This document shows, in pieces, positions 1 to 17,042 of a stretch of DNA of 27,796 bases (the first letter of the stretch is position 1; each line of letters opens with the position of its first letter). The translations under genes and the position numbers were made by a program. The stretch covers positions 1-27,796 of the IMG/VR virus record IMGVR_UViG_3300032285_002937; one strand, 5' to 3'. The notes below the pieces were generated by a model. That model had not been told where the DNA came from and did not search any database. It saw nothing but the letters and a program-made list of their open reading frames with translations. The stretch comes from a virus.

Positions 1-2952
1 AACAGGTAGAGTTCCAGTGACGCCAGTGGTTAATGGAAGTCCAGTAGCATTAGTCAACGTTATAGATTGTGGTGTTCCTAATATTGGAGTAGTTAGTATT
101 GGACTTGTATTCAATACGTTATAACCAGATCCAGTTGACAAGGTAACACCGGTACCACCATTCGTAACAGGAAGAGTTCCAGAAATTTGTGAAGTTGGGA
201 TCACTAAAGACGACACAAAGTTGCCGAAACTAATTTTTCTATAAAGATTGTCGGCACCGTTGGTGATAATAACTTGATTAGCAGAATATAATGTAGGGAC
301 TTCATTATTCACGGTGCTTGAAGAAATATATGAAAGATTCATATATCCAGAAGAATCACTTCTAGCAACTTGATTGACACCTATTACCGTTGCGACAGGC
401 TGCAAATTCAAGCCCATAAATGCACCAGTATTTGATGACGTTACAGCCGAAGTTGCGGATGTTGCATTACCATTCAATGCACCAGTGAATGTTGTTGCTG
501 ATGCAGTAGTTGCAACTAAATTGCCGGTGAATGTTGTTGCATTGGCAGTAGTCGCAACTAAATTACCAGTAAAGGTTGTTGCATTCACTCCCGAGAAAGT
601 AGGTGTTGCAGTCGTGTTGATATTTTGCGGCAAACTCAATAAAATATTACCAGTTGAAGCATTGGCAGTAACTTGATTTGTTGTACCAGAGATAGTATTG
701 ACACCGGTGTTGTTGATAGTATACGTACTACCAGTAACTGATGTTGATATGCCATTACCACCAGATATTGTTAGTGTGCCTCCGCCGGCAACGCTACCTG
801 AACCTGAACCTGCGCCTAATGAAATAGTAGTCGAGACCGCAACATTTGCAGCAGAGGTTACACGACCAACACTATCCACAGTGACAACTGGAATCTGAGT
901 TGTTCCACCGTATACTCCAGCAGTAACACCAGAACCAGGCAATCTAGAAGTGCTTAGTGTACCAGTGGTGATGTTATTTGCATTTGAAGTATCTGTTGTA
1001 GCCGATGTAGCCAATCCAGAAACCTGTGAGGTTGTGATTGCAATTCTTGTATTAGGTAACGAAGTAAGTCTTCCATAGGCGTCTACTGTAATACCAGTAA
1101 TAGTATTTGCCGTACTCAAGCCTGTAGTGTCTGGTGTTTGCACCGCAAGAGAATTTAATGATGTGCCATCAAAGTATGTTATTCGACCAGAAGTAAATGC
1201 TGTTTGATTTGTACCACCATCAGCAATTGCAATTGCACGAGCTAGACTGGAAACAGTGTTTGTTGATAATAGTCTATAGTATGAATTGGCATTGATACCG
1301 GAAACATCTTTAATCTCCCAATAACCTGACGTTTCATTCCATCGGATTGATGCATTTGCTGTTGCCGGGGATGGACGATATACATTAATCGATGACGTTG
1401 ATGCAGGTAATGAACTTCCTCCAGAATTTAGAGTAAAGTTATTTGAGTTGTATGTGGTAGATCCATTAATTTGGAAATTACCTTGAACAACCAATGCACC
1501 AGTAGTTTGAAGACTACCAAAAAGACCGGAAGTTGCAGTTAATGATCCCGTATTAACAGATGTATTGGCCTGTAGTGTATTAACGGTACCAGAACCAACA
1601 ACTGTAAGTGTTGCCGTATTAACAGATGAATTGGATTGTACAGTATTGAATGTTCCAGAATTACTAACAGTCAATATTGATGTATTAACAGATGTATTAG
1701 CCTGTAAAGTATTAACAGTACCAGAACCAACAACTGTAAGTGTTGTCGTATTAACGGATGCATTAGCCTGTAAAGTATTAACAATACCTGATCCAACCAC
1801 AGTAAGGGTCGTTGTATTAACGGACGCATTAGCCTGTAGAGTATTAACAGTACCGGAACCAGTAACCGTAATAGTTGCAGTATTAACCGAACTATTTGCC
1901 TGTAAAGTATTAACAGTACCCGAACCAGTAACTGTAATAGTTGCGGTGTTAACAGAACTATTTGCCTGTAAGGTATTAACGGTACCGGAACCAGTTGCTG
2001 TGATGGTTGCAGTATTTACAGACAAGTTTGATTGCAACGTGTATGCAGTTATCGAAGAAGTATTAACAGATGTATTAGCCTGCAGAGTATTAACAGTACC
2101 TGAACCAGTTACGGTAAGTGTTTTAGTATTTACCGATGCGTTAGATTGTAAAGTATTAACCGTACCTGAACCAGTAACCGTAATAGTTGCAGTATTAACC
2201 GAACTATTAGCCTGTAAAGTATTAACAGTACCAGAACCGGTTGCCGTGATGGTTGTCGTATTAACGGAACTATTGGCTTGCAGAGTATTGACTGTACCAG
2301 CACCAGTTACTGTGAGAGATGCAGTATTGACAGAATTATTCGATTGTAAAGTGTTTGTATATGAATCCGCAGTAACAATTAATTTGCTACCAACAGTTAA
2401 TGTTTGTCCAACAATACCATCAAGTGAAACATTCAATAGTCTACCATTAATATTATTTGTTAGTGTAATATTATTACCACTAATATCGTTAGTGACAGCA
2501 AGATACTTATTTAAAGTCGTATTGGCTGCAACTGATAGTGTATTATTTAATGTCGTGACACCAGTAACATTTAAAGCACCACCAATATTTGCAGTATTTG
2601 CAACAATAAGTCCAGTATTTGGAGCAAGAGCCAAAAGCAACCCACCAATGTTTGCTTGTCCAGTATTAGTTAGACCCAATGTATTATTGGTAAAATAAAC
2701 TTGGCCACTTACAGAAAGATTATTTTGAATGGTAGCAGAAGAACCTGCACCTGTTACTTGTAGGGCGGAAGCAAAAATCGCAGTAGTATTTACCTGCAGT
2801 GCAAGCGGACTACCATCCAGATATAGAGTTCCTGTATCTTTATGCCAATTGGTTTTACCAATACTATTAATTTCTTTGGCGGCAGCATTTGTGACCACCA
2901 ACCATTCAGAGAATGTATTGGCATTACTAAGTATTGAAACGGTATTAGACAT
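1..2952 (-). CDS. Tail fibre protein, repeat-rich, 3' end cut off by the window edge
   Basis: An open frame of 984 codons runs from the ATG at 2952 to the left edge without a stop; the C-terminus is missing. The N-terminus (MSNTVSILSNANTFSEWLVV, then a segment containing KDTGTLYLDGSPL) resembles the baseplate-attachment end of fibres in marine T4-like phages, from memory. The body is low in charge and rich in Thr, Ser, Asn, Gly and Val. It holds an array of 22-residue units (1571-2344), a 14-residue repeat (457-582), and near the edge a module with GTLPVTNGGTG, TSPILTTPILGTP and LTNATGLPLTTGV, a pattern very common in phage fibres. The likely product is a trimeric beta-structured fibre for host contact. 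The start overlaps the stop of the upstream 75-aa gene in ATGTCTAA. Which receptor it binds, and whether a C-terminal chaperone follows, cannot be seen. Confidence 0.85.
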   Translation of the reverse strand, partial: MSNTVSILSNANTFSEWLVVTNAAAKEINSIGKTNWHKDTGTLYLDGSPLALQVNTTAIFASALQVTGAGSSATIQNNLSVSGQVYFTNNTLGLTNTGQANIGGLLLALAPNTGLIVANTANIGGALNVTGVTTLNNTLSVAANTTLNKYLAVTNDISGNNITLTNNINGRLLNVSLDGIVGQTLTVGSKLIVTADSYTNTLQSNNSVNTASLTVTGAGTVNTLQANSSVNTTTITATGSGTVNTLQANSSVNTATITVTGSGTVNTLQSNASVNTKTLTVTGSGTVNTLQANTSVNTSSITAYTLQSNLSVNTATITATGSGTVNTLQANSSVNTATITVTGSGTVNTLQANSSVNTATITVTGSGTVNTLQANASVNTTTLTVVGSGIVNTLQANASVNTTTLTVVGSGTVNTLQANTSVNTSILTVSNSGTFNTVQSNSSVNTATLTVVGSGTVNTLQANTSVNTGSLTATSGLFGSLQTTGALVVQGNFQINGSTTYNSNNFTLNSGGSSLPASTSSINVYRPSPATANASIRWNETSGYWEIKDVSGINANSYYRLLSTNTVSSLARAIAIADGGTNQTAFTSGRITYFDGTSLNSLAVQTPDTTGLSTANTITGITVDAYGRLTSLPNTRIAITTSQVSGLATSATTDTSNANNITTGTLSTSRLPGSGVTAGVYGGTTQIPVVTVDSVGRVTSAANVAVSTTISLGAGSGSGSVAGGGTLTISGGNGISTSVTGSTYTINNTGVNTISGTTNQVTANASTGNILLSLPQNINTTATPTFSGVNATTFTGNLVATTANATTFTGNLVATTASATTFTGALNGNATSATSAVTSSNTGAFMGLNLQPVATVIGVNQVARSDSSGYMNLSYISSSTVNNEVPTLYSANQVIITNGADNLYRKISFGNFVSSLVIPTSQISGTLPVTNGGTGVTLSTGSGYNVLNTSPILTTPILGTPQSITLTNATGLPLTTGVTGTLPV
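457..582 (-). repeat. Three tandem 14-codon units in the fibre gene
   Basis: On the minus strand the protein reads ATTFTGNLVATTAN (582-541), ATTFTGNLVATTAS (540-499), then a diverged ATTFTGALNGNATS (498-457). The first two 42-base copies are close at the DNA level. TTFTG-type repeats are common in fibres of T4-like phages ahead of the tip domain. Confidence 0.85.
1571..2344 (-). repeat. Array of 12 tandem units (11 x 66 nt and one 48 nt) inside the fibre gene
   Basis: Read on the minus strand, the repeated unit is 22 codons with a consensus close to VNTLQANSSVNTATITVTGS followed by GT. I count eleven units of exactly 66 bases and one shortened unit of 48 bases near 2033-2080, which lacks the six-residue TGSGTV-type segment. 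Units differ mainly at third codon positions and in a few residues (for example TATITV, TKTLTV and TTTITA), so the array is old enough to have diverged but keeps its period exactly. The unit alternates short beta-type strands with Gly/Asn turns, which fits a trimeric beta-helix shaft where each unit adds one rung set. The fold is inference. Confidence 0.92.
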
Positions 2953-3172
2953 TTGGACCTTTTTCTAATAGTTTGAGCATCAAGTTCTTGATTTCCGATA
3001 AATCCGATTTTAATATATCTATATCAGACTTTATGTTATTTATTTCTTCTTTTTGAGTCTCCATTAACTTGCGTTTCATGAAGTATTCATCTCTTGCATT
3101 AGAATCTCGGTTAATGAGACCCATACTATTCGTATCACGAACAAGATGGGTACCAGGTATTTGTACAAGCAT
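2945..3172 (-). CDS. Small coiled-coil protein preceding the fibre gene
   Basis: This 75-residue protein has two parts. Residues 1-30 are polar and contain RDTNSMGLINRDSNARDEY. Residues about 31-72 form a charged amphipathic helix with leucine/isoleucine heptads (INNIKSDIDILKSDLSEIKN, then LMLKLLEK), a strong coiled-coil signature. It starts 2 bases after the stop of the 2158-aa gene, and its own stop overlaps the fibre start by 8 bases, so it is translated as part of the late operon. A helper of fibre attachment or trimerisation, or a minor structural part, would fit this position. I know of similar small genes next to fibres in marine myoviruses but cannot name a family. Function unknown. 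Confidence 0.75.
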   Translation of the reverse strand: MLVQIPGTHLVRDTNSMGLINRDSNARDEYFMKRKLMETQKEEINNIKSDIDILKSDLSEIKNLMLKLLEKGPNV

Positions 3173-3174
3173 AA

Positions 3175-6100
3175 TTAGAATGTCGTGTTAACTGTTGCCG
3201 GTAATGCAAGGCATCGTAAATCATTTAGATATGGAGTATATGTATGGTCTGAAGATACCAGTATAATTTTAATCGCAAATTGACTAAATGTACTATAAGT
3301 TTGTCCATTAGTACTGATGTAACTTACATAACCTTGGTCGGTGCCACCAGTTCCCGGCGCAAATACATATTCAATAGCATTATCGCGGGTCTGCGAATAT
3401 ACAGATTCACCATTTCTAATTTTATTCATCAATTGCCAAGAACCATCATCAAATTTTTGTGTGTCGTTTCTGTTCAGAATTTTATAGTACACTAAAATGT
3501 CTGTGTTAACAGGGCGATATGCTGTAATATACACATTCAAATCTCCTGAATCGTAACCAGCATCGAGTACAACTTTTTTAGTCACATACTTAGCAATCGC
3601 AGGACCACCCTTCGATGATGTTTCTCCGGTCACATATGCAGTAGCACCTGATCCTGGAGTAGTATTCGAATCAGCAATAATTAAAGTAGGTGTGGTAATA
3701 TAACCAGAGCCACCACCTGTTAGGTATATAGATTGAATAACACCACCAGAAATATTGGCGGCCGCAATAGCAATATTTGATGTATTGCTTCCATTCGATG
3801 CACCACCAACCACAGTTACCGATGTTGTCATTGCATTATATCCAGTACCGCCGCTAGATAACGTTATAACGGAATTCGACAACTCACAATTATTAATATT
3901 CCATCTAATTGCATATGATGATAACCCGGCATCAGAAATCATCGGACTAACAGCAGGATCAATGGATGTTAATTGTGCGTATACCGACAATGAATTATTT
4001 GTATTAGCCTGAAGAACACGTTCGCCTTGGCCATCGCTCAAGTAAATATCATCATATGTTGTTGTTCCAAATTTACCAGGAGTAATATTGACAGTACCCG
4101 CGGCAGAACCAGATTGTAAAGTTGCAGAATATGTATATCCAATAGATGTTGTTGTAGGAACAAAATCTGTGGTTGTCACATTAAATGCATCAACAAGAAC
4201 GTCTGTATTATTAACCGCATTAGTCTGTGATGTTATAGAATTCGCATTAAGATAATAATCAATTGTTTGATCAATAATTCTTCTTTCTGGCAATTTCTTA
4301 GGAACAACAAACTGAACAGTTGGACTTGAAGCCGTGGAGAATATGCAACGATCAATAGTAAACATCAAACTTTGATTCTGGTCTACAGTCCAAGTTTGTG
4401 CATTTTGTGAAATAAACAATCCACCAACATACGGAGCCGCAGCAATTTTACTAATTGCAGTTGGTGTATTATCTGTTGGTAAATTCTTAACTGAAGAAGA
4501 TACCGCAGTGTCTCCCGTTGCGGCAACCCACGCAGTGTACTCATTAGAACCACTACTCAAAACAAACGCATACAATACATTTGGTTGTATATAAATTGGC
4601 ACAGCAAAATTAAATGTCGTATATGTCGATGAGTCCAAATAATGTGGTGTATCAGAAATATTGATTTTTTCCCATGGTACAGAAATGACAGAATGATCTA
4701 AGGTGATACCATTTGGATATCCATTTTGCGTACCCACAATTGATAAAGACACCGGCGACCTATCGGCACTTGTTGCATCAGGTTTTGTTCTAAAAAAGAA
4801 ATTAACTGAAGATAAAAATGCACCGTTAGGGAAATTTTGGCTATCAATAATAAATGTTTGCGCCACAGGATCCCAAGGATTAAGAATTTTTGTAGATTTG
4901 TTTACGCTTACATTAGTTTTTGTGCTTACGAGAGTTTGTTCTCTCGTTGAAACAAAAGTTTTCTTTGCTCCAGAAGGTGATGCACCAAAATCTAAAGCCT
5001 GTGATGACGTACTTAGTCCAGATGCATAGAATGTAGCCTGTGAGAAAGTTGTGGCAGTAGTTGGGTCACCACCTAAACTATTGTCAAGACGGAAGATTCT
5101 TTCACCAGTATGGAAAACATTCGTAGGTACACAGAAGATACCATAAGCAGAACCGTGTGCATCAGATTTAATGACAGTTGAAGATGATGAACTATGAATA
5201 GAATAGATATCACCATTCGCGCATGTAATTGCAGAAGAAAGTGTGATTTTATCTGTTGCGGGATCAAATGCTGTAATTGTAGCAGATTGTCCGACACCAG
5301 TACCAGAAACAATCGAAAGTGTATTACCACTAGTACCAAAATAATTGGTAACATTTGCTGACAATGCGGATATTGTTAAAGTATTTGTTGTTGTTCCGGA
5401 AGTATTTGTATTTGATACAACACCAGCATAATGGTCTGTAGTAGAAATTGTGCCAGATGCAGTATAAGATTGATAAGTTCCGTTGGTATCAAAATTACCC
5501 GAAACAAGTTTGTAAGATCCTCCATTATAGGAAGTAGATGAACCATCACCGGCAACATATATTCTTGCAAATGTATTGGTTGGATAATTATAAACACCTA
5601 AAACAACCGCGGTCGGATGAAATACACCAACATTATCAACATATCCAACCACATCATCTTCATTGAATGTTCCAGTTACTCCAGTCAATTCAATAACGTT
5701 CGATTTACGTATATATTGATCAATCGAGAGACCATCAAAGAACGCAGATAATTCTGTGTTGAATAATAATCCTCTAGAACGGAATATAATTTGTTGTTTT
5801 CTTATCCAGGGCAGTATAGTAACGTCGGTGATATAACCGTTGTTAATTGCGTAAGTGTTACCTATACTGCTATATGGACCAATCAAACTATTTTGTTGTT
5901 GTACAGTTGTGGTTGTTGTTTTTGTGGTTGTTGTGGTATCAGTTTCAATAGCATGATAACCTTTATAACCATATGGGCTCCAGTTTTTATCATGACCCTC
6001 AACATAAATGTCTTTGGATGCTTGTGTTGAACTAGATACACTAGATGATGTGCCTGAAATAGTTTTCCAATCACCTTGGCTTATTATGCTATTTGTTGAA

Positions 6101-9100
6101 GATTCTCTCAGAACCGTCATATTAGGATCAGTAATCAGTAGAGCAGGCAACTGTGTATCATCTACCCAATTATCCATATTGGGAGTAATTGCAGTAATAC
6201 CTTCGGACCTAGGAACAGAGAATGGATTTAAATTAACAGTTCGGCTTGCGGTACTTTGCGAAACCAAATTTCCGGTCGTATAAGGTAGTGTGATATAATT
6301 TATCAATCCATCTTGATTAATTTTATAACCGAGAGTGCTTTGCGAAACTGGATTCAGTTTACCCATGTTATAGGTAACAGCCAATGGTTTCATTGGAAAA
6401 TTACGAACATTCTGGGATGCAGTCATCTGTCGAGTTCTTTTGTTGATAGCAACCAAGAAATCGCTACTGTAACTATCTGCCGTGGCAAAACTAGAAAAAT
6501 CATCAACCAGAATACCATTCTTAAATCTATTCAAACCATAGGCATCAGGAGTCTGTAGAGATTGGGCATTTTGTTCCAGTGTACTCAACGCAGTATAGTA
6601 TTCAATCTGATTAATTCTACTCTCTAAACCAGATATATCCTGCATAGTAAAACGCTTATGCTGAACTTTGTCAATAGACAAATCACCGGAGAACCCTACA
6701 GGCGCTTCAGTTGGTAAGAATCCAGTATATGGATTATGAATCAGATTGGCGATAACTAATGAACCTTCAGGTTCGGTAGGTAAATTTGGAGTTGTTGAAG
6801 GTGTGCCCTCAATAATCTGCAAACTCTTATCTTTGGTTAATACCAATTTATCCTTACGTGCCAAATAATAAGAATATGTTCCAGTGAATGTTGTCAAGTC
6901 TGTTGGCAACAATACTTCATTTATGCCACCGGAATTTGTGCGGAAAACAAATGTTGAAGATGCATTGACTCTCGATGGACGGAAATCAATAGAATCTCGC
7001 AACGGGTAAACAATTCCGCCAGAAGAAGGATAGTTTGGAATTTGAGTATATACTTCATTAGTATATGATGCAACACTAAACAATCCATCTCCGCCGCTAT
7101 GCACATAGTAATCAACAATAACAAGGATATTACCTGCGGGTTGCGGTGAACCAGACTTTAATGTTATATAAGCATGATCATAAAAACTATCTTTTTGTCC
7201 GGAATTAAAGGTGTAATTGGTTGTGATATTAGTGTATGTTGTTGGTATTGTAGCACCAACTGTAGGAATATTACCCGATGCACCGGTATCATAAATGGCA
7301 AGTACTCTCTTCACATCAACTACATACAAACTTTGTTTCGAACCTGGTGTAACTAGGCCCGCTTTTCTAATAAAAATTTGTCCGCCAGAAACACTATCAA
7401 CAAAAGTATTAGTATTAACGACTGTGCCACCAGAAACACTTGTAGTTTTGACATATGTTGTATTACCAGACACAAGTGTTTTAGTTCTTAGAATCTTTGT
7501 GCTATCACCGTTCTGAACGAAGGCTTTCGATAAAACTGAAGCTGTAAATGGTGCTAAATCGGTAGTTGAAGTAAAGAAATTTACAATTTGTGAAGGTGAA
7601 GATCCGGTAACCGACATACTTCTAGATGCATTCGCTGTTGAAGTCCAAATCAAAACATCGCCCACATTAATTTTGGTGTTTGTTCCTTTGTTCGTAACAA
7701 TCACAGTATAATTTTGTTTAATAACATCGGAACTTAATGTTCCCGTTGCAATCGGTACAACATCACCGGAATAACTAGAATATGTCAATTGAGCGGCGGC
7801 TGTACCTGGACCAGCAGGACTAAAAGAAACTCCATGATTCACAAGTGTTGTTGTATATGCTGTACCAGTCAAACTGGAAACATATGGATTTCCAATTCGG
7901 AAAATCATTTCAGGATTGATAGGGTTCTGCATTGACACATCACCCGTTAAAATATTACCTGCTTTATTTTCAACATCAATTACAGATGTACCATAAATAG
8001 TCGCTGGATACGATGCTTTACTCGCATACACTATAGTTTCCGAATCCTTGATTCCAAAGTTCAAATTAAATATTGATGTGGTATCGGGAGTAGCAGACCA
8101 AGGTTGGCTTACGGTAGCAGTATGTGTACTACCATCATATGCAGAAATAGTTCTAAAATCTCCAGCAGAAGTACCCTTAGTGATTGAAACCGTAACTCCA
8201 ACATATGCACTATTTGTTACTGAGAAATAACTAGGCAAAACAATCGTATTAGATGTAGCCGAAACGACATTTGCCGATAGGGCATTGTTCTGCAGGTCAT
8301 TTACATAAAATTTATATACTGACGTATTAGCTTGAGTGTCTGTGCTATTATGGTCGTAAATAATGTTCCTTAGATAACCAGAAGAAACAATAGTTGATGA
8401 ATATGCACTTGAGGTCGATACATTAACATTTGCAACCGAAACACAATGAATATCTATTGGTTGTGCCGCTTGATATGCACCCGAACCATTGTCGAAAAAT
8501 GAATGGTTATTTGCGCCACTTAATGTGTTAACATAAAAATAACTGCCGGTATCTATGAAGACTGGATTATTAGTTTGTGTTTTCGTTGTTCTAGCGCGAT
8601 TCGAAACAATATCTAAAGGCGCAGGATTTTCAATTCTATATCCATGCACATATGCCAGGCCCTTACCAACACTCATTGTATATTTGCTAGAATCTACATT
8701 TGTTTTTGGTGTTAAACTGAAGTCCTTAACAATGTAATCGCCGTTAGTTTCATAGTCACGTTTTGCAAAATAATCATCAATAACATTATATACAGAACCA
8801 TCAACCAACTTATAAACATTACCAGCATCAATACGAATCAATTGAATAAATCCATCATCATCACCCAACGTCAATGGACGAGTTTCCAGCGTTAATGTGA
8901 TCACATAACGGTCGGCACCTGGTGCCTGATAGTTGGAAGCACCAACAGCAGGATCCAACATGGAAGGATCATTAACATAATCATAAATTGTTTCGGTAAT
9001 ATTCAAACCAACACGAACACTAGGCGTATTGCTATACTTCGAAAGTATTACAGTTTGTGGATTTACTTGAACGAAAGTTCCATTGGAAATAACAATACCA

Positions 9101-9651
9101 TCAGAACGAGTATAATTACCAGAAATATAAAATACACCTTGTGCAATAGAAGCAACCGAACTTAAACCTGTAGCATCGGATGTTAATGTCTGTGCTGTTG
9201 TATTCGGCGATAAAGAATCATAAATGGTGTCTCCATCAACAAATTGTGTACCCGTCTTATAAGTAACAATTAATGTTGGTGGGTCGCCTGCACCGGTAGA
9301 GGTTAGAGTTGATACAGCAACTTTAATTACGCGAGCAACAACAGTACCTGTCGCATTTTGTATCAATCGACCATCAAATACCGTAGGATCAATTTGATTA
9401 CCATTTGAATCCGTATTTTGTAATTTTATGTAATAACAATTTAAATTTGTGGTGATTTGTCCACCAGTCACAGGAGAATTTTGTTTAAAAATATTATCAG
9501 CAAACTTAGTAATCTGATCCTGTAAAATAGTCTGCGATTGCGTAAGTTCTCTAGCCTGAACGGCAAAACCAGGTTTAAAAAGTATACGATGAAAGTTCTT
9601 TGTTGGATCAAAGTCATCGTAGTATGGATCAACGTTAAAGTTTAAAGACAT
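3175..9651 (-). CDS. Giant (2158 aa) baseplate-associated structural protein, DUF4815-like N-terminus
   Basis: The N-terminus (YYDDFDPTKNFHRILFKPGF, then VQARELTQSQTILQDQ) matches the start I recall for DUF4815-type phage structural proteins. Other recognisable blocks are GKGLAYVHGYRIENP (about 329-343), LRDSIDFRPS (about 880-892), YYLARKDKLVLTKDK (about 925-940), QDISGLESRINQIEYY (about 1000-1016) and WIRKQQIIFRSRGLLF (about 1280). Near the C-terminus (about 1930-2015) are glycine-rich GGTGY/GGGSGY repeats also present in gp6, gp7 and gp8. It follows gp8 by 9 bases with a good ribosome site. In T4 this part of the cluster holds gp9-gp12, none of which I recognise, so this protein probably forms the peripheral baseplate or fibre-anchoring shell. 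That role is inferred from family and context; no enzymatic motif was seen. Confidence 0.8.
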   Translation of the reverse strand: MSLNFNVDPYYDDFDPTKNFHRILFKPGFAVQARELTQSQTILQDQITKFADNIFKQNSPVTGGQITTNLNCYYIKLQNTDSNGNQIDPTVFDGRLIQNATGTVVARVIKVAVSTLTSTGAGDPPTLIVTYKTGTQFVDGDTIYDSLSPNTTAQTLTSDATGLSSVASIAQGVFYISGNYTRSDGIVISNGTFVQVNPQTVILSKYSNTPSVRVGLNITETIYDYVNDPSMLDPAVGASNYQAPGADRYVITLTLETRPLTLGDDDGFIQLIRIDAGNVYKLVDGSVYNVIDDYFAKRDYETNGDYIVKDFSLTPKTNVDSSKYTMSVGKGLAYVHGYRIENPAPLDIVSNRARTTKTQTNNPVFIDTGSYFYVNTLSGANNHSFFDNGSGAYQAAQPIDIHCVSVANVNVSTSSAYSSTIVSSGYLRNIIYDHNSTDTQANTSVYKFYVNDLQNNALSANVVSATSNTIVLPSYFSVTNSAYVGVTVSITKGTSAGDFRTISAYDGSTHTATVSQPWSATPDTTSIFNLNFGIKDSETIVYASKASYPATIYGTSVIDVENKAGNILTGDVSMQNPINPEMIFRIGNPYVSSLTGTAYTTTLVNHGVSFSPAGPGTAAAQLTYSSYSGDVVPIATGTLSSDVIKQNYTVIVTNKGTNTKINVGDVLIWTSTANASRSMSVTGSSPSQIVNFFTSTTDLAPFTASVLSKAFVQNGDSTKILRTKTLVSGNTTYVKTTSVSGGTVVNTNTFVDSVSGGQIFIRKAGLVTPGSKQSLYVVDVKRVLAIYDTGASGNIPTVGATIPTTYTNITTNYTFNSGQKDSFYDHAYITLKSGSPQPAGNILVIVDYYVHSGGDGLFSVASYTNEVYTQIPNYPSSGGIVYPLRDSIDFRPSRVNASSTFVFRTNSGGINEVLLPTDLTTFTGTYSYYLARKDKLVLTKDKSLQIIEGTPSTTPNLPTEPEGSLVIANLIHNPYTGFLPTEAPVGFSGDLSIDKVQHKRFTMQDISGLESRINQIEYYTALSTLEQNAQSLQTPDAYGLNRFKNGILVDDFSSFATADSYSSDFLVAINKRTRQMTASQNVRNFPMKPLAVTYNMGKLNPVSQSTLGYKINQDGLINYITLPYTTGNLVSQSTASRTVNLNPFSVPRSEGITAITPNMDNWVDDTQLPALLITDPNMTVLRESSTNSIISQGDWKTISGTSSSVSSSTQASKDIYVEGHDKNWSPYGYKGYHAIETDTTTTTKTTTTTVQQQNSLIGPYSSIGNTYAINNGYITDVTILPWIRKQQIIFRSRGLLFNTELSAFFDGLSIDQYIRKSNVIELTGVTGTFNEDDVVGYVDNVGVFHPTAVVLGVYNYPTNTFARIYVAGDGSSTSYNGGSYKLVSGNFDTNGTYQSYTASGTISTTDHYAGVVSNTNTSGTTTNTLTISALSANVTNYFGTSGNTLSIVSGTGVGQSATITAFDPATDKITLSSAITCANGDIYSIHSSSSSTVIKSDAHGSAYGIFCVPTNVFHTGERIFRLDNSLGGDPTTATTFSQATFYASGLSTSSQALDFGASPSGAKKTFVSTREQTLVSTKTNVSVNKSTKILNPWDPVAQTFIIDSQNFPNGAFLSSVNFFFRTKPDATSADRSPVSLSIVGTQNGYPNGITLDHSVISVPWEKINISDTPHYLDSSTYTTFNFAVPIYIQPNVLYAFVLSSGSNEYTAWVAATGDTAVSSSVKNLPTDNTPTAISKIAAAPYVGGLFISQNAQTWTVDQNQSLMFTIDRCIFSTASSPTVQFVVPKKLPERRIIDQTIDYYLNANSITSQTNAVNNTDVLVDAFNVTTTDFVPTTTSIGYTYSATLQSGSAAGTVNITPGKFGTTTYDDIYLSDGQGERVLQANTNNSLSVYAQLTSIDPAVSPMISDAGLSSYAIRWNINNCELSNSVITLSSGGTGYNAMTTSVTVVGGASNGSNTSNIAIAAANISGGVIQSIYLTGGGSGYITTPTLIIADSNTTPGSGATAYVTGETSSKGGPAIAKYVTKKVVLDAGYDSGDLNVYITAYRPVNTDILVYYKILNRNDTQKFDDGSWQLMNKIRNGESVYSQTRDNAIEYVFAPGTGGTDQGYVSYISTNGQTYSTFSQFAIKIILVSSDHTYTPYLNDLRCLALPATVNTTF

Positions 9652-12923: not shown

Positions 12924-15900
12924 TTATCCTATTAAGATTGTGAATCCATCTTCTGTTATTATATTTCTACCATCTTCAGTTATAAGTTCAGGTATATATT
13001 GAACACCTAAAGGTCCATAAATTCTCACAGCACCGTCCGTCTCGTAAATATTTCTATTGACTGTCATAAATGAATTGGCATTGCTTGTCAAATTGGAAGT
13101 CAATACAATCAAATTGTTAACTGGATCAACTGAACTAACAGTTCTTACTGTATTATTTGCAACAAGAATTTTATCCCCAGAACGAACAATATCGTACAAT
13201 GGATAAGATGTATTGCTATATTCACCGTTATTTATAATGTCATATGAACCAGTCAGATAACTTATATTGAGTCTATTATTACCAGATACACCAGTTACAG
13301 AAGCAACGTTAGCAAAGGTGACCCAAACGTTATCTTCCAACGTCGCAGTTGCATACTTGATTGTGCTGGTACTTGTTGAATTGTCTGCTGCTCGCGTCGT
13401 TTGAACAGTAGTTGTCGGGATATATGAAGTTGGTGTATATCCGAGTTCGGCTTGTGCGCCCCAGAGGAGAACACCATCACCAACATTTCCATGATAAGCG
13501 TTTTGAGACAAACTTGTTGAATTTTGTAGTATATTCATTCCAGCGTTCTGGCTGCCAGAAAAAACGTTTGCTGTCGCCCAACATCTGTACCAACCATTAC
13601 CACAATTAATGATACCATAATTCAACACATTAGGTGAAAATACTGAAGTTACAATTCCAGTAACAAGATTCGCTACTATGCCAGGATATAATGGTTCGCG
13701 TGTAGTTATAAGTAATTGTATATTCTTAACTTCTTGAGCTTTTGCAAATACTGAAAAAGTGTATATTGTATTATTTGCAATTGCTTCCTGAGTTTGTGAT
13801 ACTTGTCTTTGTGAAGTTACCACACTGGAATTCTGTGTCAGTTTGGACACAAGAGATATTGCACCTGTTGGATTTACAGTAGAAACTAAATTGACAGCAA
13901 CGTTATCTGATGCACCATCATTGAATTGTGTCCAAGGCCTTGTAGATCCCACCTCAGCAGTATTTCTAAAATCTTCACTATATGTCAATAAATTATTAGC
14001 AGCAGGCTCCAACAACAAGAATGGAGGCGCACTCAAGTTTGCAGGATTATATTGATATCTTGGAATATTAATTGCAGCGGTTTGTAGAGTTCCGTTCGCC
14101 GCGAAATATGTTCCTGTATTCGCTCTTGATACGAATGTGGTTGTTGATGGTACATAATCGCGTGCAACGGTTCCGGTTACTATTTGGGCACCCCACAAAT
14201 ATACCGTTGCTCCAGACCCTCCGGTGGAAACCTGTAAACTAACTATGGTTCCTGTAGTTGTGGTTTTTTGAAGTGTTACTCGTTGCCAAGAAGTTGTGAC
14301 GCTAACCGCAAGCGTTGTAACTTCGCTCAAATTTGTATTGGATATTAGGTTTACCGACTGCGCGGAATCGGCCCTAATCCAAATACTAATTGTGTAAGTA
14401 GTTGCTGCTGCGGATGACACAGCTTGGTAAATTCCAGATGATGCCGCTAAAGTAACTCTGTCTGCATTTACACCCCCATTAGGAGATGTGGTGGCATCTG
14501 CGGTAACGGACGTTGTACCATACTTAACCCACGCAGCATTATCAAAATACTCCGAGTAACGTAACAAATTAGTATATTCTGGTGTAACATTAACAACTTT
14601 GGAATATACAAGTTGACCATAAGAATTTGATATTGAAATGAAACTCTCATTCGGGAAAATGAATCCTTGTGTGTTAGATCCAGAAAGTCCGTCAAATTGT
14701 ATGGTATTGCTACTTTGGTTGGTGAAATCACCAACAATTGCTGCACTTGATCCAGGATTTCCAGTATAGAATCCTAAAGTTTGACTTGATTGTGTAGCAT
14801 GTGCTAAATGTAAATTGAAACGATTATCAACTTTGACTGCATATCTACCAAGAACTTTTAGTCCAGTCGGATGCAACAAGTCCAATAGTACTTTTCTATA
14901 CTTTTCAATTTCTTTTCCTACAGTAATTTCATATGTGAAATTATTAAAATTTTCACTCTGTAAAACATCATAAGAACTTGGATGTCCAGTGCTATCCAAA
15001 TATTTACCGTTACCAATAACCAAACCATTTAAGAATGATGCGGTAGCCTTTGCTGTTCCATCACCATAAATTAAAACACCAGAAGTTGTATCATAACGGT
15101 CATCCGCAATTGCCAGAGTATACTTATTGGACATATCCATTGTGATGCTTTTACCATCAACATTCAATGACCCAAAAAAATTATTGGCTTTAGAAGTATA
15201 ATTAAACACTCTAAGTCTATATCTTGAAGCACTTGGTGGATAATCCTGAACAAGTAAGGATACCGAATCTACAGTCGCCTTGAAAGTTGCTACATCGACA
15301 TTTGCTCCCTGATATACAATATCACCTTTCTGAGCAATATTGGTGTAATCAACATTCGCAACAACAATGTCTTGCACCCTTATCGATACGTTTGGTGTTC
15401 CAATATAATCTTCACCATAATTATTAATTGTAATTGTCGTTATAGAGCCGGCACGATCTGTAATAGGAGTTAACACGGCTCCATCACCCATAATACCAGG
15501 AACAATTAATACTGCATTAGAAGATAAAGTGTTTGCAGAATTTACGCTAAGTAAAGGCAATGAATCGGTCTTATATCCCATACCACCCAATGAATATTTG
15601 TGTGGTGTATCATTAGTGGGATAAACATATTTTATAGAAGTGATAGCGTTTGTTGAAGGATCAACTGATATGACATTAGCATATGCTCCATAACCAGATC
15701 CACCCGAAAATACAATTTTATCATTTACTCTGTATCCATTTCCACCATTAATAATTAAAATTGGACTCAAAATACCAAGATTTTTTAAACTGGATGTGCC
15801 GGCACTATAAAGTGTAGAATATTGTGTATCCGCAGTTATAACCGGAGTCTTTTTAATACCTCCACCATGATTATCAATAATCAATGATGATATTGGGGAA

Positions 15901-17042
15901 CCAGTAAAAGAAATAAAATTTAATGTATTTGCAATTGTTGTATTTGCATTTGTTGTGTATGATTTAAACGCATAATTAGCCGAACCGATACTTATAGATG
16001 CTTTAGAGCCAATATAATTAACGGAAATAAAACTTACGTTTGAAGAAACATTTGCATCCGGATCTACACTCGCAACGCGAACCTGTGCTCCAGGAGCGTT
16101 AGTAATTTGAATTGCAGTAGTTACCGTTTGTGTGGAGATCGCTCCAGTATTACTATCGGTTACTGTAGGAGCATACACATAACCATAACCACCATTATCA
16201 ATAACAATACGCTGAATCGAACCGGTTGTAGTTTCTCCTACAGTTGCTGTTGCACCTATACCATTTTCAGATTCTAAAGCACCATATGCAATAACAGGAT
16301 CGCCGGTTTGGTATAATTCACCTCTATACTCCGGATTAATTTTAATTTGACTAATTTGTCCTACAATTTTACCGCGAAGTATGGTCGCACCAATAGTATC
16401 TGAAGATACGGCAACACCATTTAAAAAATATACATCTTGATCATTGTTGTCAACAACACGCACATATTCACCAGATTGAAATAATCTTTCAATGTTTGAA
16501 ATAAATATTTCAGTTTTATTTTTTGTAAATGTTGTATTTTCAATTACCGCAATAGATTTAGTCGTTTCACCAAAAATTCTATAATTGGCGGCCGCTAAAA
16601 AATTTATATTGTCAGATTTTACATTTAGACTTTTGGAAACATACCATTTACCGGCCGATGCTCTCAATACAGCATCTTTTGTATAGAAAAAATCAACATC
16701 AGAATTGTATAAAATTCTGAATAAAAATTTATAAGAAGCAGGAGTACCTTTTGTCTTATAAAGTTCTTTTGCTATTTTGGTAACAATTTTCTTATCTGTT
16801 AATACATCCACAGGAAAATAAGAAAGAAAATCATTATAAAAATAATCCAAAAATTCATTACTGGTTCGATCAATATCAATATAATTTAATATATTTTTAC
16901 TTCTATCAGTTACATTACCAGTTTCTTCCATCCACTCATAGTATGCTTGGAGGAATAAAACAAATTTTTCATAATCCGGATTTTCCCTGATAAATTCAGG
17001 TAACTGATTAGGAATCAGTAATGAGGTTTTATTTGTTATCAT
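12924..17042 (-). CDS. 7: Baseplate wedge protein related to the C-terminal half of gp7, with inserted lectin-like modules
   Basis: The 1372-residue protein aligns from its N-terminus with the C-terminal part of T4 gp7. NPDYEKFVLFLQAYYEWMEE (21-40) matches T4 NFEAFCEAYIQYLSD. KGTPASYKFLFRILYNSDVDF (98-118) matches T4 KGIEASYKFLFKVLYNEEVEI. YRKVLLDLLHPTGLKVLG (715-732) matches T4 SDVIRFVHPVGFGF. Between them lie several glycine-rich repeats (INGGNGYRVND, FSGGSGYGAYANV, INNYGEDYIGTPNV). Residues about 823-1222 hold two modules typical of phage carbohydrate-binding tail domains. The tail ends in a short duplication, ELITEDGRNIITEDGF. The stop of gp6 overlaps this start (ATGA). Gp7 builds the inner wedge in T4; the N-terminal half of T4 gp7 is not in this ORF. 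The T4 sequence is quoted from memory. Confidence 0.82.
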   Translation of the reverse strand: MITNKTSLLIPNQLPEFIRENPDYEKFVLFLQAYYEWMEETGNVTDRSKNILNYIDIDRTSNEFLDYFYNDFLSYFPVDVLTDKKIVTKIAKELYKTKGTPASYKFLFRILYNSDVDFFYTKDAVLRASAGKWYVSKSLNVKSDNINFLAAANYRIFGETTKSIAVIENTTFTKNKTEIFISNIERLFQSGEYVRVVDNNDQDVYFLNGVAVSSDTIGATILRGKIVGQISQIKINPEYRGELYQTGDPVIAYGALESENGIGATATVGETTTGSIQRIVIDNGGYGYVYAPTVTDSNTGAISTQTVTTAIQITNAPGAQVRVASVDPDANVSSNVSFISVNYIGSKASISIGSANYAFKSYTTNANTTIANTLNFISFTGSPISSLIIDNHGGGIKKTPVITADTQYSTLYSAGTSSLKNLGILSPILIINGGNGYRVNDKIVFSGGSGYGAYANVISVDPSTNAITSIKYVYPTNDTPHKYSLGGMGYKTDSLPLLSVNSANTLSSNAVLIVPGIMGDGAVLTPITDRAGSITTITINNYGEDYIGTPNVSIRVQDIVVANVDYTNIAQKGDIVYQGANVDVATFKATVDSVSLLVQDYPPSASRYRLRVFNYTSKANNFFGSLNVDGKSITMDMSNKYTLAIADDRYDTTSGVLIYGDGTAKATASFLNGLVIGNGKYLDSTGHPSSYDVLQSENFNNFTYEITVGKEIEKYRKVLLDLLHPTGLKVLGRYAVKVDNRFNLHLAHATQSSQTLGFYTGNPGSSAAIVGDFTNQSSNTIQFDGLSGSNTQGFIFPNESFISISNSYGQLVYSKVVNVTPEYTNLLRYSEYFDNAAWVKYGTTSVTADATTSPNGGVNADRVTLAASSGIYQAVSSAAATTYTISIWIRADSAQSVNLISNTNLSEVTTLAVSVTTSWQRVTLQKTTTTGTIVSLQVSTGGSGATVYLWGAQIVTGTVARDYVPSTTTFVSRANTGTYFAANGTLQTAAINIPRYQYNPANLSAPPFLLLEPAANNLLTYSEDFRNTAEVGSTRPWTQFNDGASDNVAVNLVSTVNPTGAISLVSKLTQNSSVVTSQRQVSQTQEAIANNTIYTFSVFAKAQEVKNIQLLITTREPLYPGIVANLVTGIVTSVFSPNVLNYGIINCGNGWYRCWATANVFSGSQNAGMNILQNSTSLSQNAYHGNVGDGVLLWGAQAELGYTPTSYIPTTTVQTTRAADNSTSTSTIKYATATLEDNVWVTFANVASVTGVSGNNRLNISYLTGSYDIINNGEYSNTSYPLYDIVRSGDKILVANNTVRTVSSVDPVNNLIVLTSNLTSNANSFMTVNRNIYETDGAVRIYGPLGVQYIPELITEDGRNIITEDGFTILIG
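12927..12930 (-). promoter_or_regulatory. Shine-Dalgarno site of the 618-aa fibre-like gene
   Basis: AGGA on the minus strand, 6 bases before the ATG at 12920. It lies across the end of the gp7-like gene: the GGA is its last codon (Gly) and TAA follows directly. Confidence 0.6.
13377..14576 (-). other. Two tandem lectin-like (carbohydrate-binding-type) modules within the gp7-like gene
   Basis: Module 1 (residues about 823-975) starts TNLLRYSEYFDNAAWVKYG and has YTISIWIRADS, SWQRVTLQ, VYLWGAQIVTG and DYVPSTTTFVSRANT. Module 2 (about 1015-1222) starts after PPFLLLEPAANNLLTYSEDF and has YTFSVFAKAQE, GNGWYRCWATA, VLLWGAQAELGY, TSYIPTTTVQTTRAADN. These are the recurring landmarks of the jelly-roll module found in many phage tail-fibre adhesins. 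By hand count, 14161-14460 is 137/300 G+C, against 83/300 for 16441-16740 in the same gene, which suggests a separate origin. Sugar binding is inferred from the family pattern. Confidence 0.75.

Follow-up and report, generated by a model that had tools for sequence, protein, structure and literature searches.

A 22-codon repeat array in a probable phage tail-fibre gene and the length of the predicted shaft among its relatives

Repeated shaft elements are a feature of the T4 tail fibre proteins gp34 and gp12, which are described in passages of a published account as long, fibrous and beta-rich, with aliphatic beta-strands and with Gly, Ser and Asn in the turns (PMC5537660). According to the same passages, helices and a variable-length loop occur in the repeats of gp34, the triple beta-helix of which is without a clear sequence motif (PMC5537660). 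In-frame tandem duplications of varying number in a putative tail-fibre gene, arisen in coevolution with the host, are reported in part of a study on Enterococcus phage EfV12-phi1 (PMC6365445). For pelagimyophages, passages of another study place the tail-fibre genes of the host recognition cluster directly downstream of VrlC in most genomes (PMC7029224). The adenovirus fibre belongs to an unrelated virus and has an unrelated repeat. Its shaft also lies between an attachment tail and a receptor knob, and the length of that shaft has been studied as a trait (PMC9690795). The present report concerns a tandem repeat array in a tail-fibre-like gene of IMG/VR virus record IMGVR_UViG_3300032285_002937, of which positions 1 to 27,796 were analysed computationally (the whole stretch of 27,796 nucleotides is hereafter the window). 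The array is best explained as a modular, recombining fibre shaft, the length of which is free in some lineages and probably under selection in another, an explanation with an estimated probability of about 0.7.

The predicted protein would resemble gp34 and gp12 in being long, fibrous and beta-rich, with repeated shaft elements and with aliphatic strands linked by turns that contain Gly, Ser and Asn, and the array, unlike gp34, has a strict motif of 22 residues (2 x 11). No match to T4 gp34 or gp12 was obtained with the open reading frame (ORF) of the window in Pfam and PHROG or with a profile of the repeat, A3, against PDB sequences. Duplications of small domains in the T4 adhesin, in a tail-fibre gene, are said to be linked to host range (Tetart, 1996, judging by the title); they sit in the adhesin, whereas the repeats of the window sit in the shaft before the collar. 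The adenovirus shaft repeat is about 15 residues long. The array shares with EfV12-phi1 the location of an in-frame tandem repeat inside a putative tail-fibre gene, although the unit reported in that part of the study is 1.8 kb and new and that of the window is 66 nt, degenerate and common to a family (PMC6365445). The position downstream of VrlC is that of the pelagimyophage fibre genes, and the passages describing the latter make no mention of a repeat of this type or of fibre length (PMC7029224). Among the matches listed in literature searches, no title or opening abstract concerned a 2 x 11 repeat family or a lineage of fixed shaft length, which is no proof of their being unpublished. The features of the gene are as follows.

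1..2952, minus strand: tail-fibre-like gene, 984 amino acids (aa) visible, truncated at the window start (open frame, translation, relatives)
2578..2952, minus strand: N-terminal domain (N-domain), residues 1-125, probable attachment domain (hidden Markov model, HMM, built from relatives with the window sequence included)
2353..2577, minus strand: pre-array segment, residues 126-200, with predicted short strands mostly in six-residue steps (AlphaFold secondary structure of low confidence, predicted local distance difference test, pLDDT, of 38-63 in those blocks)
1579..2352, minus strand: repeat array, 11 units of 22 codons and one of 16 (Tandem Repeats Finder, translation, lag identity)
2041..2088, minus strand: short unit, 16 codons (22 minus 6; 18 nt short; translation)
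1516..1578, minus strand: decayed 13th unit, 21 codons (translation)
1261..1494, minus strand: collar domain, residues 487-564 (HMM from 27 relatives, E 1.3e-26)
1..1260, minus strand: distal fibre part, with the tip outside the window (translation; ends of relatives)

Counted from the TLQ motif on the minus strand, 12 units follow one another in frame between 2352 and 1579. The array of 12 units with one unit shortened by 18 nt, as described in the initial annotation, is therefore real; the coordinates given there, 1571-2344, delimit the identical array in a different phase, and the decayed 13th unit had gone uncounted. This last unit has 43-57% aa identity to the other 22-codon units and, across the portion that aligns, 87% to the short unit. 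Tandem Repeats Finder reported the array with periods of 66, 132, 198, 246 and 312 (scores 245-831) and a period of 33 over part of it (score 93). Residue identity at a lag of 22 was 0.72 over residues 201-479, and in 200 shuffles no lag from 4 to 49 exceeded 0.24. Thr, Asn and Ser abound in the units, which are strongly alike. Differences between them fall mostly on the third codon position (0.23, 0.14 and 0.48 for the three positions), as had been stated before. The mean DNA identity of units was 71% compared with 66.0±0.9% in 300 re-codings of the same peptides drawn from the codon usage of the gene outside the array, indicating that common descent makes the units more alike than the peptides alone would demand. 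A 377-aa frame on the plus strand over the array (1565-2698) was set aside as a probable by-product of a period divisible by three. Tandem Repeats Finder also located a second, smaller repeat in the fibre gene, beyond the collar at window positions 481-585, with 2.5 copies of 42 nt (14 codons).

Two N-domain profiles retrieved 188 and 210 confirmed relatives from viral contigs, and the best 80 of the 188 and the best 80 of the 210 were taken further (loci are numbered with the prefix L). HMMs revealed a common layout: the N-terminal domain (125 aa) is followed by a shaft, and a collar (73 aa) precedes a variable end. The collar was matched in 81 of 98 unique proteins; among the 17 with no collar match, 10 are truncated and seven are not. 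Shafts ranged from none to about 890 aa. In L109 and L112 the collar begins at residue 89-90, too early for an array to fit in front of it; in L002 it begins at about residue 1015. A home-made HMM detected an S74-like C-terminus in 66 of 82 full-length unique relatives, the other 16 having other ends. Six relatives scanned with Pfam matched S74 (four), Gp10_C (one) or nothing (one), and the same number compared with PHROG matched tail-fibre families (four), a 'tail protein' family (one) or nothing (one). In the four tail-fibre matches the best stretches extend to the C-terminal end, the region that the window gene is without. The fibre role claimed in the initial annotation is thus supported by the ends of relatives and by the gene neighbourhood described below, and the array gene probably encodes the shaft part of a phage tail fibre. 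Very short fibres of 360-369 aa with an S74-like end and no collar match are encoded at L099, L104 and L107. The L014 fibre is nearly identical to those of L010 and L011, apart from lacking a stretch after the collar and having a different, earlier C-terminus (1368 aa versus 1626 aa for L010 and L011), which may be real or an assembly effect.

The window ORF had no PHROG match and no Pfam match above the cut-off, PrpR_N being rejected as its identity since it fell below that cut-off. No relative was found in phage records by protein search with the whole ORF and the N-terminal 200 aa of L006 at the sensitivity used, and a search of genome contigs with the N-domain profile gave 59 pattern matches, none of which was confirmed. 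The N-domain found nothing significant among PDB sequences (best E 0.069). None of the relatives retrieved is very close to the window, the best identity of the neighbouring VrlC-like protein being 67%.

In order to compare shafts, length was taken as the number of residues before the collar and set against an N-domain tree of 78 rows (without L075, L109 and L112). In the clade comprising the window and eight others (99/95 in the tree), length varied from 213 to 860, the window having 486. In a second clade of 17 tree rows (100/98), hereafter the fixed clade, length was 513-515 throughout. A set of 73 proteins was kept for pairwise comparison, without the same three loci and five near-duplicates. 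All 105 of 105 pairs among the 15 non-redundant members of the fixed clade differed by no more than two residues at N-domain identities from 0.5 up, while shaft identity within the clade fell to 36% with a median of 44%. The 58 proteins outside the fixed clade ranged from 179 to 1014 with none at 513-515, and their pairs had median length differences of 76-129 below 90% N-domain identity. An out-of-sample search with the fixed-clade N-domain yielded 24 distinct unseen proteins, kept from 79 fetched loci and still including some near-twins (L145/L146, L134/L136). Fourteen fell inside the fixed clade (99/95) and all 14 had lengths of 511-515, 13 of them 513-515; the 10 outside had lengths of 179-443. 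These results show two length regimes. Change of length between relatives, as originally claimed, is strong in the window clade, whereas rapid change does not hold as a general rule, one clade being held at 511-515 while shaft sequence and units diverge. A constant number of units with no homogenisation, the outcome named beforehand as contrary, is not what was found for the family, since length varies and units in related arrays no longer fully correspond by position.

Close relatives outside the fixed clade gave an indication of the steps by which length changes. In the window clade, L053 differs from L074 by 176 residues (8 x 22) and from L084 by 5; elsewhere L037 and L042 differ by 11, and L033 and L034 by 6. 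Six of the 11 unequal pairs with N-domain identity of at least 0.84 differ by 11n, 11n+5 or 11n+6, compared with three expected by chance. Four proteins (L017, L018, L019 and L044) are all of length 272, their shafts aligning without gaps at 70-88% identity, so that more than one clade may have a fixed length. The small clade of L183, L184, L187, L190 and L193 has lengths of 432, 432, 359, 443 and 432 at nearly equal N-domains, where 432 to 443 is one 11-residue step and 359 to 432 is not a multiple.

The same period was evident from the spacing of LQAN-type motifs in 84 shafts, the window included, kept after omission of near-duplicates and nine loci with no usable shaft. Among 866 spacings, 351 were of 22 residues and 149 of 11. 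Of the 850 spacings in the range 5-90, 513 were multiples of 11, compared with 8.5% in composition shuffles, and the share was still half after removal of the window, L003, L054, L055 and the fixed clade. As shafts of kin are not independent, these counts describe the spacing and do not test it. The spacing is quantised on 11 residues, 22 being 2 x 11. A spacing of 27 was seen 31 times versus 1.5 in shuffles and one of 5 was seen 38 times versus 2.6. Spacings of 9 and 13 (27 and 34 cases), which add up to 22, are probably due to another motif within the unit. The class 11n+5 accounts for 90 of the 337 spacings that are not multiples of 11.

The proposal is that the repeats make up the shaft of a modular tail fibre, with an attachment domain on the N-terminal side and, on the other, a collar carrying an exchangeable end. 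Each 22-residue unit would be a pair of 11-residue elements, each probably comprising a strand and a turn, and the shaft would change mainly by whole elements (11 or 22 residues) and at times by about half of one (5 or 6 residues). The 16-codon unit may be such a half-element change. Recombination between units would duplicate, remove and overwrite them. The outcomes would vary widely in length in the window lineage, and in the other lineage those restoring 511-515 residues before the collar would persist. Such persistence suggests that the trait selected there is probably total length and not the number or sequence of units.

The fold of the shaft was approached with AlphaFold monomer models, which gave a mean pLDDT of 55 for residues 1-545 (left out of the fold searches) and 68 for eight units. 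Although weak, the models show a pair of strands in each 22-residue stretch for most of the array, and in the eight-unit model strands mostly alternate between 7 and 9 residues with a 22-residue period. This period would also suit a single-chain solenoid, in which each unit forms one coil of a parallel beta-solenoid (a right-handed beta-helix, curlin-like or leucine-rich repeat (LRR)-like) and not part of a triple-stranded fibre, an alternative that is a genuine possibility if a doubtful one. VIA-align, which warns on repeats, placed SufB/SufD, SRRP, tapirin and pectate lyases, presumably all beta-helix folds, at the top for the eight-unit model, with Z up to 14.1. Foldseek against PDB and viral models returned no match at E <= 0.001; the viral list held 'Curlin associated' phage proteins, all weak (best E 0.017). 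The lack of a Foldseek match at that threshold and the pLDDT of 68 weigh against the solenoid, and a prediction made on one chain is unable to reveal a trimer. No curlin family was listed in a Pfam scan of six bare arrays up to E 10, in which filters drop weak matches. Each of the six drew different Pfam families, as periodic sequence does; DUF3244 scored 29.1 against a cut-off of 25 bits on the window array and was rejected as it was absent from the lists of the other five. The repeat profiles matched Crov588, which has the same repeat period, with E 0.02 (A3) and 1.3e-4 (A4), the latter in favor of the solenoid, as are the strand period of the eight-unit model, the VIA-align ranking and the curlin-associated rows. 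Repeats of the Crov588 type are labelled FNIP / LRR 22-residue repeats. Gly, Phe and Asn columns agree in the alignment with A3, but the match was not relied on because hydrophobic positions look out of step by eye. The shaft may be a triple-stranded fibre or a bundle of solenoids. Since tailspikes are trimers of beta-solenoid-type coils, a solenoid would change the fold of the proposed shaft and not its role.

In order to follow the units themselves, pairs of seven members of the fixed clade (L004, L005, L006, L010, L086, L087 and L094) were compared unit by unit. At N-domain DNA identities of 72-89%, 6-13 of 15-17 units resembled some unit of their own array as much as, or more than, the same-place unit of the relative, a comparison that favors turnover since the best of many units is set against one. 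Alignment revealed cancelling gaps of +22 and -22 in two fixed-clade pairs, L004/L005 and L004/L013. Within-array DNA identity was 0.54-0.57 (maxima 0.83-0.99) in the L004-L094 part of the fixed clade and 0.58-0.63 (maxima 0.91-1.00) in the length-variable L053, L074 and L084. Units may instead come and go by slippage and recombination in a neutral array of which the length is irrelevant, the fixed clade reflecting less recombination or common descent. The wide scatter of length in most of the family is as drift would give, and L108, L111, L114, L116 and L119 of the fixed clade have less alike units (0.44-0.49). However, the L004-L094 arrays are nearly as self-similar as variable ones, with turnover and cancelling gaps at unchanged length, so that a lack of recombination does not readily explain the fixed length there. 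A neutral array is on balance unlikely.

A modular shaft with partial turnover of its units could, in a stronger form, act as a length ruler. In one lineage selection would keep the total number of residues constant to within a few, despite shuffling, replacement and compensation of units; in its sisters, that of the window included, the same scaffold would have been released, with lengths moving largely in 11-residue quanta. This form is put forward tentatively, at somewhat less than even odds. If true, reach and not sequence would be the inherited trait. The family offers a graded set of naturally occurring fibres, the shortest lacking an array and the longest having a shaft of about 890 residues, all with the same base and most with the same collar. 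With one lineage length-locked and others free, the effect of fibre length on adsorption is testable by comparison. The results also describe a widespread fibre family in uncultured phage contigs, and as the N-domain is without a PHROG or above-cut-off Pfam match in the window ORF, they may help annotation.

Several observations weigh against the modular shaft as proposed. L155 of the fixed clade has a length of 511, five of the 11 unequal close pairs are off the expected steps (47, 91, 189, 206 and 12), and six of 12 outside pairs above 90% N-domain identity are equal in length. The pre-collar length of some variable members, such as L064 and L056, includes non-repeat stretches. The same-place unit was the best match in 2-13 of 15-17 units, the value of 13 belonging to L006/L010 with N-domains 99% identical. 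Nine of the 31 spacings of 27 belong to L002, and the share of 11n+5 in all spacings is 10.6%, that of the shuffles being 10.2%. A spacing of exactly 16, the size of the short unit, occurs in 11 of 83 other shafts and is no commoner than 12, 17 or 21 (13, 13 and 12 shafts); this weakens membership of the unit in a privileged 11n+5 class, and that the unit is a half-step of the shaft is a suggestion. The AlphaFold models are weak and monomeric, and the sole PDB sequence match of the repeat profile, Crov588, is not a fibre. Known kin are uncultured contigs only, known from sequence, with none in phage records at the sensitivity used. The end of the window gene is itself truncated, and its identity as a fibre rests on relatives and neighbours.

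The units could also be receptor-binding repeats forming a multivalent surface, their number setting avidity and not reach. Adhesin repeats often bind ligands, and the strong likeness and Thr/Asn/Ser-rich composition of the units would suit this role. It is nevertheless improbable, as relatives have tip-like domains beyond the collar, L109 and L112 have no room for an array, and the fixed clade keeps its length while units diverge. A repeat number falsified by collapse or expansion in short-read assembly is hardly credible even though all data are metagenome contigs with exact repeats of 86 nt in L094 and 69 nt in L064, given that exact repeats in the window array do not exceed 41 nt, a length that ordinary short reads are expected to cover, that L006, L007 and L009 from different records encode the same protein, and that 31 fixed-clade loci agree within four residues.

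The window, a 27.8-kb virus record, contains T4-like baseplate and tail genes for wedge subunits, hub, tail lysozyme, tube cap and tube. Two features adjoin the fibre gene.

3175..9651, minus strand: VrlC-like baseplate protein, upstream neighbour of the fibre gene (phrog_358; records annotated VrlC)
2945..3172, minus strand: 75-aa ORF, the stop of which overlaps the fibre start (translation; tblastn)

With baseplate wedge, hub and tube genes in the window and the VrlC-like gene upstream, the array gene is a member of a baseplate or fibre module, an arrangement resembling that in most pelagimyophage genomes as far as the passages cited describe it (PMC7029224). Of the loci that include 1.2 kb or more ahead of the fibre gene, 102 of 102 had a VrlC-like match in that upstream region, 15 of them having been retrieved with the VrlC protein itself as query; phrog_358 names no function in the match itself. 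The fibre start was visible in 31 of 35 VrlC-retrieved loci, the others being L121, L122, L125 and L126. The 75-aa ORF between VrlC and the fibre was matched by tblastn upstream of the fibre in 101 of 104 loci, all except L032, L036 and L039. It looks coiled-coil, and its product is perhaps, as a guess, an assembly partner of the fibre. Within the baseplate cluster, a 1372-aa protein (window 12924-17042, minus strand) matches a baseplate wedge family at its start and phrog_5939, a tail protein, over residues 972-1337.

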